In this document: positions 1 to 11,092 of the stretch, in pieces
Layout of the letters: the number at the start of each line of letters is the position of its first letter
Numbering within the stretch: the stretch's first letter is position 1
Assembly: GCA_024280095.1 (NCBI GenBank)
Contig: JAJRQU010000050.1
Coordinates: 1-35,852 of the forward strand
Length of the DNA: 35,852 bases
Direction of reading: 5' to 3'
Source of the DNA: Alphaproteobacteria bacterium
GTDB lineage: Bacteria > Pseudomonadota > Alphaproteobacteria > Sphingomonadales > Emcibacteraceae
The notes under the pieces: model-generated
Databases searched by the model: none
What the model saw: the letters and a program-made list of their open reading frames with translations, nothing else
Told to the model about the DNA's origin: nothing
Made by a program: the position numbers and the translations under genes

Positions 1-131
1 CACAAACTTCAGTTTGGCGAAAATTAAATAAACCACAAACTTCAGTTTGGCGAAAATTAAATAAACCACAAACTTCAGTTTGGCGAAAATTAAATAAACC
101 ACAAACTTCAGTTTGGCGAAAATTAAATAAA
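1..131. repeat. 33-bp tandem repeat, about 4 copies, may continue left of the window
   Basis: Unit CACAAACTTCAGTTTGGCGAAAATTAAATAAAC starts at 1, 34, 67 and 100; the last copy is cut just before the IS left end. The unit contains the small inverted repeat AAACT-TC-AGTTT. Confidence 0.95.
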
Positions 132-198
132 GAGAGGTGGTCCCAGAAGATAGGACAGTGTGTTAAGCTTTTATTTTGGTCATGAAAGGATCATATGA

Positions 199-495
199 AT
201 GAGTAGAACACGCAAAAATTATCCCGCAGCTTTTAAAACGAAAGTTGTTATAACTGCACTTCGGGACGACCGCCCTGTATCAGAACTTGCTTCTCAGTTT
301 GGAGTGCATTCGACGGTAATCGGTCGCTGGAAACGTGAAGCCCAGGCTTCCATGTAGGCCGGGTTTTCTGGCAAACTGGATGTACAGCATAATAATCACG
401 CCATGGAAGTGAAGGAATTGCATGCCAAGATTGGCCAGTTGACGGTGGAAAGAGATTTTTTGTCCGAAGCCTCCAGCCGCTTGATCCCCATATAA
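199..495 (+). pseudogene. IS3-family OrfA (HTH) remnant with internal TAG
   Basis: ATG at 199 gives MSRTRKNYPAAFKTKVVITALRDDRPVSELASQFGVHSTVIGRWKREAQASM then TAG at 355. The same frame continues KLDVQHNNHAMEVKELHAKIGQLTVERDFL. Confidence 0.75.
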
Positions 496-514
496 ATTTG
501 GGGGAGGCGTAAAG

Positions 515-1345
515 AAATGGTAGTGGCCGCCAATGTTAATCTGAGCATAACGGTGCAATGCCACCTGCTGTCGATCAGCCGATCAAGTTGGTATTATAAC
601 CTGAAAGGCGAAAGCCCGCTGAATTTAAAGCTGATGCGTCTGATTGATGAATAATTTCTGCTCACGCCCTATTACGGCTCCCGCCAGATGGCGCGGAATT
701 TGCGCCGGCAAGGGTATTGTGTCGGCCGTCACCGTATCCGCCGCCTGATCCGGATCATGGGCTTACGGGCGATTTATCAGGAACCCCGCACCAGCATGCC
801 GCATCCAGCGCACAAGATCTACCCTTATCTTCTGCGCTCCCTTGCCATTACCAGACCGGGTCAGGTCTGGTGCACGGACATCACCTACATCCCCATCAAG
901 CGGGGATTTCTCTATCTGGTGGCGATTATTGGCCAGAGACATAAAATGCTATAGCCGTAAAGTGCTAAGTTGGCGTTTGTCCAAACAGCATGGATGTGAG
1001 TTTTTGTCTGGAAGCATTGGAAGAGGCCTTTGCCCGCCATGGTCAGCCAGAGATATTTAACACCGATCAAGGATCACAATTTACCTCCTTTGATTTTACC
1101 TCTGCGCTGAAAGACAGGGGCATCAAAATTTCCATGGATGGCAAGGGTCGGTGGATGGACAATGTCTTTATAGAACGCCTCTGGCGTAGTTTGAAATATG
1201 AATGTTTATTTGAACGCTTTTGACAATGACCTGCAGGCCCGGCAGAATATTGGCTCTTGGCTGGGCCATTATAATCACACCCGGCCCCATTCCACTTTCA
1301 ATGGAGCGCATCGCCTGCCCTTGGGGTACAAACCCCCGATGAGGT
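515..1345 (+). pseudogene. IS3-family OrfB (DDE integrase) remnant, frameshifted with stops
   Basis: YYGSRQMARNLRRQGYCVGRHRIRRLIRIMGLRAIYQEP..., WCTDITYIPIKRGFLYLVAI, TDQGSQFTS, GRWMDNVFIERLWRSLKYE are spread over several ORFs (688-954, 990-1223, 1198-1431), with a TAA near 651. Confidence 0.8.
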
Positions 1346-1478
1346 TTATACTCAGAAAATCGAAAATCAGGGTCATGACCCTGATCAAAGGAAAAAAGCG
1401 GCATAACATTAAACAACATAACAAAGCTTAACATTGCCGCAAACCTGTCCAACAAAGTAGGACCACCTCTTACCTCCT

Positions 1479-3032
1479 GTTGCGGGTTGACCAGGATTTT
1501 TGAATAGCTACAATACGGGTCACTGTGGGCCTGTATGAGGCTTTGTTGCGGGTTGACCAGGATTTTTGAATAGCTACAATAGATGCAGAGGACAACAAAT
1601 GGCTGATCCCGTTGCGGGTTGACCAGGATTTTTGAATAGCTACAATCCGCCGACCAGGAAACCAATGCCGCCGCCGGTTGCGGGTTGACCAGGATTTTTG
1701 AATAGCTACAATGCAAGGGAAAAACGAACGATAGTTCCCCCAGTTGCGGGTTGACCAGGATTTTTGAATAGCTACAATAAAATGAGTTTAATATCCTTTC
1801 CCGCGCCGGTTGCGGGTTGACCAGGATTTTTGAATAGCTACAATATATTATTGGCGCACCAGAAGGCACACAGGGTTGCGGGTTGACCAGGATTTTTGAA
1901 TAGCTACAATTTTAAATACTCTTGATAGCCATACTTTCTAGTTGCGGGTTGACCAGGATTTTTGAATAGCTACAATTGGAAGACATTGCTATCAGGCATA
2001 TCCACGGTTGCGGGTTGACCAGGATTTTTGAATAGCTACAATTCAGGGTGGAAACAGAAAGATATGCCGTCAGTTGCGGGTTGACCAGGATTTTTGAATA
2101 GCTACAATACCTGTTATAAAACATGGCTTGCCGCGTAGGTTGCGGGTTGACCAGGATTTTTGAATAGCTACAATCAGACGCTCTCGATCACTTAATGATC
2201 TGTTGTTGCGGGTTGACCAGGATTTTTGAATAGCTACAATTTAAGGCCAAGGGCGAAGCCGCCGATACCGGTTGCGGGTTGACCAGGATTTTTGAATAGC
2301 TACAATGAACCAAGAGCAATACCGCTGTATAACCCCGTTGCGGGTTGACCAGGATTTTTGAATAGCTACAATTTACCAAGAATTGTCAAAGCTTTCATGG
2401 CCGTTGCGGGTTGACCAGGATTTTTGAATAGCTACAATTTAGAAGGAAGATTGGGCAAGGCGGTGGCTGTTGCGGGTTGACCAGGATTTTTGAATAGCTA
2501 CAATGCTCTTTTATAAATCGTCATATAGCTTCCTGTTGCGGGTTGACCAGGATTTTTGAATAGCTACAATCGCCACAATCGCCGCGATAACCGGAACAGC
2601 GTTGCGGGTTGACCAGGATTTTTGAATAGCTACAATAAATGATAGAACAACCATTATCAAGAAGATGTTGCGGGTTGACCAGGATTTTTGAATAGCTACA
2701 ATGACGTTCCAATGTTCGCGGTCGGACACACTGTTGCGGGTTGACCAGGATTTTTGAATAGCTACAATTCGGCCTGAATATTAACGATCCTGTTTCATGT
2801 TGCGGGTTGACCAGGATTTTTGAATAGCTACAATTTATTCTGAAAAAAGGAAAGATTATGAAAAGTTGCGGGTTGACCAGGATTTTTGAATAGCTACAAT
2901 AATCACATTAATCAATCAACAGGCGGCGCGGTTGCGGGTTGACCAGGATTTTTGAATAGCTACAATAATACCTCATTTGGAACAACCACTTTTGTAGTTG
3001 CGGGTTGACCAGGATTTTTGAATAGCTACAAT
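1479..3032 (+). CRISPR. CRISPR array, 24 repeats of 36 bp, 23 spacers of 30 bp (type II-C)
   Basis: Repeat GTTGCGGGTTGACCAGGATTTTTGAATAGCTACAAT recurs every 66 bp from 1479 to 2997. All copies read identical and all spacers differ. The plus strand is inferred as crRNA sense from the tracrRNA and terminator orientation. Confidence 0.98.
1479..3032 (+). promoter_or_regulatory. Candidate promoter embedded in each CRISPR repeat
   Basis: Repeat positions 9-14 TTGACC (-35-like) and 31-36 TACAAT (-10-like) with 16-bp spacing, in all 24 repeats. Confidence 0.6.
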
Positions 3033-3036
3033 AGAT

Positions 3037-3085
3037 AGGCGTTAACAGATTGATATGATTGATTTGTTAACGCTTTTCTTCTTTT
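3037..3085 (+). terminator. Rho-independent terminator-like hairpin after the last CRISPR repeat
   Basis: GCGTTAACA (3039-3047) pairs with TGTTAACGC (3065-3073), followed by TTTTCTTCTTTT on the plus strand. Confidence 0.7.
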
Positions 3086-3104: not shown

Positions 3105-3449
3105 TTAAAACAGTAATAATTGTTGTCTTTTTTCCGTCTTTTCATATCGTTTTCCATTGAAAACCTTAATGTTTTCATATTGCTTGTCGGTAATGGCTAG
3201 AATTTGTACTGACCCATATTCGGGCAGATTTTCACGAATGCGGCGTTCCATGGTTTGGCCGCTATCCTTGCCGGAGACCATACGATAATAGACCGAATAT
3301 TGGGCCATGGCAAATCCTTGGTCCAATAAAAAATTCCTGAACTGAGTCGCGGCCCGGCGGTCGGTTTTTTCAACCACGGGCAAGTCGAACATTACAAGCA
3401 TCCACAAAATATCATATCCACTTAACCAATATTTCTGATCCCGAATCAC
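3105..3449 (-). CDS. cas2: CRISPR-associated endonuclease Cas2
   Basis: 114 aa; MLVMFDLPVVEKTDRRAATQFRNFLLDQGFAMAQYSVYYRMV is Cas2-like. Sits between the array and cas1. Confidence 0.95.
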   Translation of the reverse strand: MIRDQKYWLSGYDILWMLVMFDLPVVEKTDRRAATQFRNFLLDQGFAMAQYSVYYRMVSGKDSGQTMERRIRENLPEYGSVQILAITDKQYENIKVFNGKRYEKTEKRQQLLLF

Positions 3450-3451
3450 GA

Positions 3452-4372
3452 TTAAATTAAGGCTCCCGATTTTCTGAATTGGGGAAATTCAAGCTGATTC
3501 TCTTTATTATGTAAGCTGGTGACAAAAGTCTGGGCCATACGGTGCATCGAATTCATCACCGTGGAGACGCCCTTTTCCAACTGCACATCAATATCCAAGA
3601 CCTTGGTGAGTTGTTTTTTCACTTCTGGCGTTAGAGCATTTTCTCCTATCATCCCCTGATCCATAAGGTCACGGACATTTTTATCAATCAATGGCCGATA
3701 GGGTTCCATAAGGTCATCCACAAGGGCAAAGGGGTTCTTGCGGTTATGATGATGAATGCCAAGAGCAGGCGTTAAGCCCGCACCGCAAATCGCCCGCGCG
3801 GTCGCGGCCCTCAGGATGCTGTAACCATAGTTCAAAAGGCTGTTTTCTGCCCCCATTTGTCGATCACGCTTAAAATCCATGCCAAAAAGTGATTTCCAGT
3901 AAAGCCGTGCGGCTTGGGCTTCCATATTTTCGGGATCACCAGACTTTACCCGATTGGCCAGAATATGAAATTCAGATAAAGTGGTCGCCGAAACATCAAA
4001 AAATTCAAGGGTGTTTCTTTGATTTAAGATTTTTTTCTGTACCACCGATTTCCAAATTCGCTTGGCCAGTGGAAGACCGCAGTCAATTTGCGCCCATAAG
4101 ATACCCGTCTGATCATAATGGGTATCATAGGGAAGCGATAATGCAAGGGGGTGGTAATTTTTACCACAGATGATAATTGGGGTTCTGCGTTCCGCCAATT
4201 CCATGATGAGTGTTTTGGTCAAAGTAATTTGATGAGCCGACAATATCAGGGTTGTCATATCATCAAGGGGGATACGGCCAACCTCCGTGCCATCTCGTTT
4301 TACAGTCATAAAACCGCGGTATTTTGACAAATGATGATCATCTTCGGCTATTTCAACAACTTGCGTCACCAT
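3452..4372 (-). CDS. cas1: CRISPR-associated integrase Cas1 (type II)
   Basis: 306 aa; GAENSLLNYGYSILRAATARAICGAGLTPALGIHHHNRKNPFALVDDLMEPYRPLID is characteristic of Cas1. Confidence 0.97.
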   Translation of the reverse strand: MVTQVVEIAEDDHHLSKYRGFMTVKRDGTEVGRIPLDDMTTLILSAHQITLTKTLIMELAERRTPIIICGKNYHPLALSLPYDTHYDQTGILWAQIDCGLPLAKRIWKSVVQKKILNQRNTLEFFDVSATTLSEFHILANRVKSGDPENMEAQAARLYWKSLFGMDFKRDRQMGAENSLLNYGYSILRAATARAICGAGLTPALGIHHHNRKNPFALVDDLMEPYRPLIDKNVRDLMDQGMIGENALTPEVKKQLTKVLDIDVQLEKGVSTVMNSMHRMAQTFVTSLHNKENQLEFPQFRKSGALI

Positions 4373-4375
4373 AAG

Positions 4376-7300
4376 CTACCCCTTTATTTGTCCATCGGCA
4401 TGATGATGTAATTTTCTTTTGAAGTTATTTTTTATCCAGACTGAAATGGTTTTAAAATCTTGCTTTCCTTCAGTATTATATTGTGGACGCAGGTCAAGTC
4501 GTCCACTGGACTTGTTTAAACCCGCGACTTTCATGATTTTATGTTCACTATTTTCTGCCAATTCAATCATATCATTTTTAAAAAGTCGTGTGATGAATTT
4601 TGCCGCCGAATGAATGGGTTTTCCATCAATTTGACCGTCATTTTTATCCGGATTTTTTCCCTTGCAATCCGCATAGGACCAAAAGACGCCCTTCCAGTCA
4701 AATTCACCTTTCTTCCATTTTCCCGCCTTGCCTTTTGGCAGTTGCCAAATATCGACACAAACATATGATTCTGGCGCGTATGCCTTATAGGGTGCAGAGG
4801 GAATAATAGTTGCCGATTGGTTTGACACCAATATGCGAATGGTTTTAATGTTATTTTCCTTGCCAAAATCGGCTAATGCCTTGTCCAGCTTAATGCCATT
4901 GGCCTTGGCCTCATAGACATGCTGTTTAACACGCTTACGCCAACCTTGATTACGGATGGCCCCAATTTCTTTTTCTGTGAGAGACGCTATTTTCTTTCGT
5001 GTTACCAGATTATATCCCTTAAGATCAGGATCTTGTTTTTCGGGGGCCACAATACCGTAAGCTGTTTCCTTATACATTTTGCCATTGGTTCCGTGATCTG
5101 CTTTATAAGATATAATCATATTATTCAGCCTATCTTTTAATTGATCACGCAAAGGCGTAATATCAGGCAGGTCAATATGTACGCGATCATCGGCACTTCT
5201 CTTGGTTTGGCTTGAGACCTGTTGAAGCATAGAGCGATCCGTTAAACCAACGACAAAGGCATCAATGGCATGATGACGGTGATCATTTCTTTCCTTGAAA
5301 TTATGATCGCCGAGCAAGCTGTTTAAGTGCCATTTTCCCCGCATCATGGCGGTCAGCCCGCCGGGGATTGTGGCAATCTTATTTTGATCGCATATATGGG
5401 ATAAATATCTTTTTGTAATTTTTGATATATAGGCATTGTCGGTTAATTGACGGGCCAAAAATCCGCCTTCCTCGTCAAACTTATTCATGGCATCTTCATC
5501 AAAACGCCAGCGTTTATTTTTGGGGAAAGATTTTGCCCGCTCTGCAATATCACGCCATATTATCCCCTGATCTTCATGCTGGTCATGAGCAAAGGCCTCA
5601 TAGGGCGTTCTGTTTCCTTTCAACCTGTTGGCTTGCCTTATGGCAACGGTAAGATTCGCAGGGCCGTTATCCAAAGTACGAGAAAAAGGTAGAATATGTT
5701 CAATTTCTGCTTCACCATTGAAAAGCATGGCTCCTGAAATAACCTTGCCTGTGAAGGGGCAATGACGGGTAAATTGATCAGATCCCAGCTCCTCCCAAAG
5801 GCGCATTTTTTTCAGGTCTGAGCCAGAAGGATTGCGTCCGCCATTAAGTTCGCGGTATAAAATAGCCCGCGCCTCATTAGCCTTGGCATATGTCTTATTT
5901 TGTTTGGCAATATCATCTCGCGCCTTAGCCGTTTTTTTAAGGTCTCGCACCAGTTCCACATGTATCTCTGATGGTGGGCCAAAGCGGTCAATCAAGCGGT
6001 TGATAAGTTTTCTGAGTTGATTTAGGGCAACATGCACCGTGGGGTTATTTATTTTTCCATAATGCTGTTCTGGATTATCTATCGCCTTAAAATCAGCCGG
6101 CTTGGCTCCAATGACACTGCCTTTTAGGACTTCTCCATAATAGGGAAGTTGATCAAGGATTTTCTCAACATCATATCTACTGTGATGAAAGAAAACCCCG
6201 TCATCGTCATAAACTTCACGAACGGCGGCGTCATAGCCTAGGTTATCTTCTTTCATGATAGCACCACAGCGCATCATAAATTTTCGCGATAGATGTGTCG
6301 TGGCGGAAGATAATTTAAATTTGCTGACGGCTTTTGCCTGTTCCGCATTAAAAGAAAAGACTTTCATCAAGTCGTGGATGAGCTGGGCATCATCCTCCGC
6401 ATCATGTAACATTTCCAATAGGTCATTTTGTTCATCTGTTGTAAGCTCGTCCCACTTATCATCCAATATTTCATCTTTTCGCATTGTAAAGGCTGTGGCA
6501 TTACCATTTAACTTGTCACGTGGGCCTGTTTCCAGATTGAATAAACATTCTCGCGGGAAAACGAGACCTCCATCAGGGTTCCTTAATTTTCGAATGGCAT
6601 TGAAGGCAATTGTTTTTTTACTGTTCAAGCAATTAATTAATATCGCCCTTTGATTGGTGTCTAGTTCGTATTTTTTTTGATCTTCATCGTAATATTGAAG
6701 GTTGCCTACCTCCTGCAAAATCCGAAATTCATGGGCAATGGGCAGGTCTTTATGGGCGCGATATTCTTCAATAAAAAACTCACAACGTCCCCGTTCCACA
6801 GGTTTTAATTTCCTTTGAAAAAATATGCCGTCGAATGCTTGAGATTCATTACCATTGCGTAAGTCATCCCAGTCTGAAATTGATAATTTATGGTGCTCTT
6901 TTTGATTTTTACGTATCTGATCAAACTCTTGCACATACATGGCGCGATCAGCATAAAGGTCACCTTCTTCGCCGCGAAATCGAGTGGACAGTCCGTCTAG
7001 GCGGCGGTTGTAAAGCCACTGGCCTAGGGTTCTATCCCCCAGTTCTTTCCGCAATTCTGAAATTTTGGGTTTGATTTTGCCTTTTTCTTCATCATCTCCG
7101 TCACTTTTCCGATTTGATAAAAAACCGCGCCTTTGACTAAAGTGAAATAAGCAACGGCCTAATTCGTGAGGCGTTAGGGCTCTTTCCAATGCTTCAGCCC
7201 TTAAGCGATAGGGGTCAAGATTTTCAAGTGTTTTTCTCTCACCCTTATTTTCTGGCATAAGTCCAAACTGGATGAGCCTTTCGATTAATTGCCTTTTACG

Positions 7301-7519
7301 GCGTAATCGGCGGTCACGATTTCGTCTTGCACCGCGGGCTATGCGTCTTTCTACGGCAAGGCTTTCCCCAACCCTGTCCTTGCTTGAGGGTTCTCTGCCA
7401 TCAGAAAAAATTCTTACTCCAGAATCTTTTAAATGCTGAATATTGCCACTGTTATTTAAAGAGAATGCGGCCCAGCCTAATGAATTAGTCCCCATGTCTA
7501 ATGCTAATCGCCACGTCAT
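4376..7519 (-). CDS. cas9: Cas9 endonuclease, compact type II-C
   Basis: 1047 aa. RuvC-I LALDMGTNSLGWA; Arg-rich bridge helix RRNRDRRLRRKRQL; RuvC-II IHVELVRDLK; HNH CPFTGK...EIEHILPFSRTLDNGPANLTVAIRQANRLKGNRTPYEAF; RuvC-III HHRHHAIDAFVVGLTD. No csn2 or cas4 nearby. Confidence 0.97.
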   Translation of the reverse strand: MTWRLALDMGTNSLGWAAFSLNNSGNIQHLKDSGVRIFSDGREPSSKDRVGESLAVERRIARGARRNRDRRLRRKRQLIERLIQFGLMPENKGERKTLENLDPYRLRAEALERALTPHELGRCLFHFSQRRGFLSNRKSDGDDEEKGKIKPKISELRKELGDRTLGQWLYNRRLDGLSTRFRGEEGDLYADRAMYVQEFDQIRKNQKEHHKLSISDWDDLRNGNESQAFDGIFFQRKLKPVERGRCEFFIEEYRAHKDLPIAHEFRILQEVGNLQYYDEDQKKYELDTNQRAILINCLNSKKTIAFNAIRKLRNPDGGLVFPRECLFNLETGPRDKLNGNATAFTMRKDEILDDKWDELTTDEQNDLLEMLHDAEDDAQLIHDLMKVFSFNAEQAKAVSKFKLSSATTHLSRKFMMRCGAIMKEDNLGYDAAVREVYDDDGVFFHHSRYDVEKILDQLPYYGEVLKGSVIGAKPADFKAIDNPEQHYGKINNPTVHVALNQLRKLINRLIDRFGPPSEIHVELVRDLKKTAKARDDIAKQNKTYAKANEARAILYRELNGGRNPSGSDLKKMRLWEELGSDQFTRHCPFTGKVISGAMLFNGEAEIEHILPFSRTLDNGPANLTVAIRQANRLKGNRTPYEAFAHDQHEDQGIIWRDIAERAKSFPKNKRWRFDEDAMNKFDEEGGFLARQLTDNAYISKITKRYLSHICDQNKIATIPGGLTAMMRGKWHLNSLLGDHNFKERNDHRHHAIDAFVVGLTDRSMLQQVSSQTKRSADDRVHIDLPDITPLRDQLKDRLNNMIISYKADHGTNGKMYKETAYGIVAPEKQDPDLKGYNLVTRKKIASLTEKEIGAIRNQGWRKRVKQHVYEAKANGIKLDKALADFGKENNIKTIRILVSNQSATIIPSAPYKAYAPESYVCVDIWQLPKGKAGKWKKGEFDWKGVFWSYADCKGKNPDKNDGQIDGKPIHSAAKFITRLFKNDMIELAENSEHKIMKVAGLNKSSGRLDLRPQYNTEGKQDFKTISVWIKNNFKRKLHHHADGQIKG

Positions 7520-7594
7520 AACGTACCCCTTTTTGTCTATATTTAAAAATATATATTGACTTATAGTTGTAAGGGACGCAATGTATTTATTGAG

Positions 7595-7677
7595 TGTAGC
7601 TACTCAAAAATCTTGGCAGTTCGTTAACACGATTTATGTCATAAAATTTAAAGGTTGGGTTCGCCCAGCCTTTTTTT
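7595..7677 (+). ncRNA. Candidate tracrRNA; 5' end not resolved
   Basis: TGTAGCTACTCAAAAATCTTGG (7595-7616) matches the reverse complement of the CRISPR repeat at 20 of 22 positions. It is followed by a weaker anti-repeat tail to about 7628, a small hairpin TTTAT-GTC-ATAAA, and a terminator. Confidence 0.88.
7653..7677 (+). terminator. tracrRNA terminator, possibly bidirectional with parE
   Basis: GGTTGGG-TTCG-CCCAGCC followed by seven T. It lies 4 bp from the parE stop codon (7682-7684 on the minus strand). Confidence 0.85.
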
Positions 7678-7681
7678 ATTG

Positions 7682-10831: not shown

Positions 10832-10940
10832 TTTCCATTATCCACCAGACACGCATTAGAATTTAAATTTCGCAAGTGACCCATTTCCCGCCCCAAGCGC
10901 AAGCCTGAAGGGAAAAACCGGAAGGCGCATAGCGCCGACC

Positions 10941-11063
10941 TAGCGACCAAGCGGGAGCGCAGCCCCTAGCGGCGCTTGAGCGTAATCCAAATAAACAGGA
11001 GCCCTTGCGACTTAGCGACCAAGCGGGAGCGCAGCCCCTAGCGGCGCTTGAGCGTAATCCAAA
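10941..11063. repeat. Pair of identical 51-bp REP-like repeats plus a partial third copy
   Basis: TAGCGACCAAGCGGGAGCGCAGCCCCTAGCGGCGCTTGAGCGTAATCCAAA at 10941-10991 and 11013-11063; the tail GAGCGTAATCCAAA recurs at about 11070-11083. Contains CAAGCG...CGCTTG. Confidence 0.9.
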
Positions 11064-11092
11064 AAATCAGAGCGTAATCCAAAGAAAATAAT

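Follow-up and report, generated by a model that had tools for sequence, protein, structure and literature searches.

The array described here belongs to an ordinary, apparently intact type II-C CRISPR system (tracrRNA, cas9-cas1-cas2 and a convergent array), and each of its repeats probably carries the promoter from which the following spacer is transcribed. Among the readings of the sequence that we considered, transcription of every crRNA from its own repeat is the best explanation, given the II-C architecture, the conservation of the −10 element and the precedent of Campylobacter jejuni and other II-C systems. Such transcription is already known for the subtype, and this array is predicted to be another case. 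The −10 half of the candidate promoter is well supported by comparison of related arrays, whereas the −35 half is only plausible.

The locus and its array

The analyzed stretch of DNA (35,852 nucleotides, hereafter the window) makes up one complete contig. The genome to which it belongs, that of an Emcibacter-like alphaproteobacterium, is incomplete, and Emcibacter MAGs are its nearest named relatives. The features of the locus are listed in Table 1. The array contains 24 perfect copies of the 36-bp repeat GTTGCGGGTTGACCAGGATTTTTGAATAGCTACAAT, the first one included, and 23 spacers, all of exactly 30 bp, so that the period is 66 bp from end to end. In every repeat TTGACC and the terminal TACAAT are separated by 16 bp and together match the promoter consensus in 10 of 12 positions. 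The initial annotation had reported this arrangement, and its coordinates proved exact for 24 of 24 copies; its arithmetic for the guide is also correct, as initiation some 7 nt downstream of TACAAT would leave approximately 24 nt of the spacer.

The 24 identical copies were counted as one observation of the motif, not 24. An equal or better promoter match on the + strand was obtained for 0.13% (0.0013) of 200,000 shuffles of the repeat, and a match with the −10 element exactly at repeat positions 31–36, for 0.018%. Elsewhere in the window, 16 matches as good were counted over 68,552 strand-bases. The chance origin of the motif is unlikely, yet the motif is not extraordinary alone, and its weight comes from the comparisons below. 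On the crRNA strand, the −10 element forms the 3’-end of each repeat, as in II-C systems with repeat-embedded promoters. No TG extension precedes it, repeat positions 28–29 being AG; the extended −10 element (TG or equivalent) is not required of all members of this group, and here TTGACC is present instead.

Table 1. Features of the type II-C locus and its surroundings (window coordinates).
Feature	Position	Strand	Details
Decayed rve/HTH_21 (IS3-like) insertion element	133–1470	+	inverted ends AGAGGTGGTCC/GGACCACCTCT; 8 bp before first repeat
CRISPR array	1479–3032	+	24 identical repeats, 23 spacers; crRNA strand from tracrRNA duplex orientation
TTGACC, −35-like, repeat positions 9–14	1487–1492 (first copy), every 66 bp to 3005–3010	+	
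TACAAT, −10 element, repeat positions 31–36	1509–1514 (first copy), every 66 bp to 3027–3032	+	
Predicted start of the spacer-1 transcript	1521, every 66 bp	+	about 7 nt past TACAAT, ±2; predicted from σ70 geometry
Intrinsic-terminator-like hairpin (3039–3073) with U-rich tail	3039–3085	+	−17.1 kcal/mol, z −6.3
cas2	3105–3449	−	
cas1, type II	3452–4372	−	TIGR03639
cas9, uninterrupted	4376–7519	−	1047 aa; TIGR01865, 571 bits
Predicted tracrRNA promoter TTGACT-17-CAATGT	7556–7584	+	conserved in 7 of 7 close relatives
Predicted tracrRNA	7590–7680	+	anti-repeat 7595–7626; terminator hairpin 7650–7673 and T-run

The RuvC and HNH domains of Cas9 are uninterrupted, and its closest solved chains by sequence are Cas9 proteins of 1082–1092 aa (8ja0, 6jdq), the 1082-aa 8ja0 being the best. 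Neither csn2 nor cas4 was found beside cas9, cas1 and cas2, and the cas genes of the locus, all three uninterrupted, are of type II only, in agreement with subtype II-C. Beyond cas9 and the array lie a gyrase B-type gene and the insertion element, respectively. The HNH motif of this Cas9 reads EIEHILPFS, with the metal-binding aspartate beside the HNH histidine replaced by glutamate; in the 49 loci where the motif was found, EH occurs in 35 and DH in 14. An intergenic region at 10936–11070 of the window contains two tandem copies (95% identical) of a 72-bp GC-rich unit.

The predicted tracrRNA with its anti-repeat adjoins the locus, also as in II-C systems; a search of Rfam yielded no match. 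For the + strand of the repeat, the tracrRNA:repeat duplex has an energy of −38.4 kcal/mol and includes 34 of the 36 repeat bases, compared to −30.9 kcal/mol for the opposite orientation. The crRNA strand is therefore the + strand, convergent with the cas operon. The reverse orientation of the array and the tracrRNA was rejected given the weaker duplex, and no terminator was seen on that side.

The array showed no protospacer match in phage records, nor did a search of viral contigs reveal an exact match to the seeds of spacers 23, 20 and 19. An 18-base core of spacer 22 matched viral contigs 19 times; these matches, with 7–9 mismatches over the spacer, were ascribed to chance. Spacer 12 (2241–2270) matches 27 of 30 bases in a DNA cytosine methyltransferase gene from a genome of the same genus (L161:6720-6749), followed by CTAAAAAG. 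Since the match covers a conserved motif, it may not be a true protospacer.

Conservation of the repeat 3’-end

Related arrays were collected by Cas9 searches of Emcibacter relatives, the order, the class and the phylum, which yielded 69 arrays. They were oriented by the cas9 strand and not by the repeat sequence. The non-redundant set comprised 41 repeats that differ from one another at more than 6 bases. T31 and A32 are each present in 40 of these 41 repeats, and the single exception to both (L111) resembles a shift of the register by one base. T occupies position 36 in 34 repeats and C in seven, and position 33 varies freely. Positions 31, 32 and 36 correspond to −12, −11 and −7 of a −10 element. 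The tracrRNA duplex predicted for five relatives does not include positions 31 and 32, and yet TA is retained there. Positions 33–36 are mostly outside the duplex as well (paired in 22, 20, 14 and 7 of 38, respectively). Many alphaproteobacterial σ70 promoters have no T at −7 (PMC8407463). The C at position 36 in some relatives fits such promoters, and for the same reason something other than promoter function may have contributed to T36 being nearly fixed.

Additional evidence is provided by the first repeats. In II-C systems new spacers are acquired on the cas2 side, at the last repeat, and the oldest repeat is the first one (PMC12080349, PMC6008519), in which decay of the initial ~15 nt is known (PMC12080349). 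The first repeat contributes no handle to a wanted crRNA; hence only a role ahead of spacer 1 should persist in it. With first repeats at contig ends set aside, 56 remained, of which 28 are decayed and contain 137 changes: 100 at positions 1–8, 21 at 9–14, 11 at 15–18, five at 19–30 and none at 31–36. In the 28 decayed repeats this amounts to 0.446, 0.125, 0.098, 0.015 and 0 changes per site, respectively, the difference between the last two segments being small (5 of 336 vs. 0 of 168 sites changed). The intact 3’-end is what a promoter needs, and as the first repeat neither belongs to a wanted crRNA nor serves for acquisition in II-C systems (PMC12080349), the preservation of this end argues for a promoter role. 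The protected stretch reaches back to position 19, which is wider than σ70 recognition alone requires. We also considered reading selection on the −35 box from the decayed first repeats and abandoned this, as positions 9–14 are inseparable from their neighbors.

Flanks of the array and the proposed transcripts

The two flanks of the array behave differently. Among close relatives, the identity of the 60 bases upstream of the array is 0.20–0.33, and that of the 60 bases downstream, 0.57–0.78. As the upstream flanks are unrelated, a conserved leader promoter is absent upstream of the first repeat, which is the arrangement expected with promoters embedded in the repeats. The space immediately upstream is occupied by the insertion element, which contains a promoter-like 10/12 match at 1220. 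A second, partial copy of this element (88%) is found on another contig (C121) of the same genome. At the contig end, window positions 1–131 comprise four perfect tandem copies of the 33-bp unit CACAAACTTCAGTTTGGCGAAAATTAAATAAAC, which is also found on contigs C27 and C162.

Downstream, the first base of the terminator-like hairpin (3039) is the start site predicted for the promoter of the last repeat. On the + strand, comparable oriented terminators occur in 24 of 41 relatives; the − strand has them in three of the 41, and shuffled sequences, in 2.4. A second terminator detector applied to 43 loci found 27 against 7.6 expected, and four on the other strand. We found no description of a terminator abutting the last repeat in the literature searched. 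The downstream flank (3033–3085; also L035-L134) has A at flank position 13 in 38 of 41 cases, and since this base is locked in register, the flank probably doubles as the acquisition leader. The terminator may protect the convergent cas genes from transcription coming from the array.

In the mechanism that we infer, RNA polymerase with the housekeeping σ factor would bind the repeat via TACAAT, probably aided by TTGACC 16 bp upstream. Transcription would start about 7 nt into the next spacer and yield first a guide of ~24 nt and then the next repeat. The latter would pair with the tracrRNA and the resulting duplex would be loaded into Cas9, with possible trimming of the 3’-end by RNase III. 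Read-through transcripts would be nested and end at the terminator, which would also shield the convergent cas operon. The crRNAs had been initially annotated as processing-independent. This agrees with the predicted 5’-end and does not extend to the 3’-end: 34 of the 36 repeat bases lie in the long duplex with the tracrRNA, which makes 3’ trimming by RNase III likely, and in C. jejuni the 3’-end is produced by RNase III (PMC3656092). Thus only the 5’-end should be called processing-independent.

A broader generalization may be tentatively offered, with a probability that we place short of one half. In alphaproteobacterial II-C systems, the acquisition flank would also be a built-in terminator beginning at the predicted start site of the last repeat, so that the transcripts form a nested, 3’-co-terminal set and the newest spacers, adjacent to the terminator, are read by the largest number of promoters. 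In the clade studied here, a full −35 box would reside inside the segment pairing with the tracrRNA, and this stretch would be under selection in two ways, as a DNA site for RNA polymerase and as an RNA partner of the tracrRNA.

Alternative readings and known systems

From the sequence, the chance that TTGACC acts as a −35 box appears somewhat better than even. The alternative, a serious candidate though we would not bet on it, is that TACAAT and the bases immediately upstream suffice, TTGACC being kept for pairing with the tracrRNA and having little role as a −35 box; it is a variant of transcription from each repeat and does not exclude it. Consistent with it, positions 9–14 also pair with the tracrRNA, a −35 box matching in 5/6 or better is found in only six of the 41 non-redundant repeats while T31 and A32 are nearly universal, and decayed first repeats change at 9–14 as often as at 15–18. 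Nor did we see a trade-off between the −35 box and the extended −10 element across relatives: by presence or absence of TG, the repeats with TTGAC divide 3/3, and those without it, 18/17. On the other hand, TACAAT here lacks TG, so that upstream help is expected, and class-wide the best −35 box at 15–19 bp has 3.66 matches vs. 2.74 in shuffles. Further, the predicted tracrRNA promoter of the clade is TTGAC-17-CAATNT-like in seven of seven cases, and hence the host polymerase probably uses TTGAC. Finally, all members of the close clade have TTGACC, even though the predicted tracrRNA duplex leaves A12 bulged out; the invariance in itself was discarded as evidence, because 27 of the 36 positions are invariant there and six invariant positions are expected in ~15% by counting. 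Pairing with the tracrRNA and common ancestry confound the −35 signal and explain much of it. The better −35 match claimed in the initial annotation therefore stands as a comparison of strings and not as a demonstration that the −35 box is used, given the pairing, the 6 of 41 and the lack of protection in decaying first repeats.

Two other readings dispense with promoters in the repeats. It is unlikely that a single promoter, upstream or in the insertion element, yields a long pre-crRNA cut by RNase III and the tracrRNA, with the repeat ends kept for Cas1-Cas2 or for pairing. This route is standard for type II-A, and the near-full-length anti-repeat and the match at 1220 would suit it; positions 19–36 of the first repeat could be kept so that RNase III frees spacer 1. 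However, the upstream flanks share nothing among close relatives, the insertion element is only 8 bp from the first repeat, positions 33–36 never changed in the 28 decayed first repeats while being mostly outside the duplex, and acquisition in II-C systems uses the other end (PMC12080349, PMC6008519). Still more improbable is that TANNNT at the 3’-end is a recognition sequence of Cas1-Cas2 and resembles a promoter incidentally. The last repeat does abut the conserved acquisition-side flank with its position-13 A (38 of 41), and T36 is commoner than expected of alphaproteobacterial promoters (PMC8407463). Yet the oldest repeats, unused in acquisition, have zero changes at 31–36, the conserved bases fall at −12 and −11 (and for the most part −7) while position 33 is unconstrained, and C. 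jejuni repeats do act as promoters (PMC3656092).

Campylobacter and Neisseria have measured crRNA promoters within their repeats; transcription from each repeat would add Alphaproteobacteria, where we found no measured ones in the literature searched and where the comparative evidence is strong. It would explain how the array can be used although an insertion element ends only 8 bp upstream of it. The system also offers a testable case in which a single short repeat acts as a promoter, pairs with the tracrRNA and receives new spacers, and for engineering, a 36-bp repeat starting its own guide would allow compact arrays requiring no outside promoter.

Several characterized II-C systems can be compared with this one. 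The Neisseria repeat ends in GCTACAAT, like the repeat here, and has TG before TACAAT, unlike the repeat here; to our knowledge, it contains no TTGAC at the right distance. Individually transcribed crRNAs were reportedly described by Zhang et al. (2013) in the II-C systems of N. meningitidis and N. lactamica. RNase III is reported to be dispensable in Neisseria, and a route that does not depend on RNase III has been reviewed for both Neisseria and Campylobacter (PMC8616872). The proposal that the present system works as in N. meningitidis holds as far as a start in each repeat is likely, judging by the II-C layout, the conserved −10 element and published II-C data (PMC3656092, PMC12080349); use of the −35 box and full independence of processing are less well supported than the initial annotation proposed. 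With C. jejuni, the locus has in common the tracrRNA/cas9/cas1/cas2/array layout, 36-bp repeats, 30-bp spacers, the −10 element at the repeat 3’-end, and a start a few nucleotides inside each spacer, predicted here and measured in C. jejuni, where dRNA-seq placed the starts at spacer position 5 (Dugar et al. 2013, PMC3656092). The C. jejuni repeat has the extended −10 element GGTAAAAT, whereas the repeat here has TACAAT without TG and TTGACC 16 bp upstream. Repeat promoters were generalized to II-C systems by Feussner et al. (2025), in whose arrays the oldest repeat decays, acquisition occurs at the last repeat and each repeat contains a promoter (PMC12080349). Those arrays have terminators upstream, of which none was found in the window; here the terminator follows the last repeat, and the first repeat is intact.
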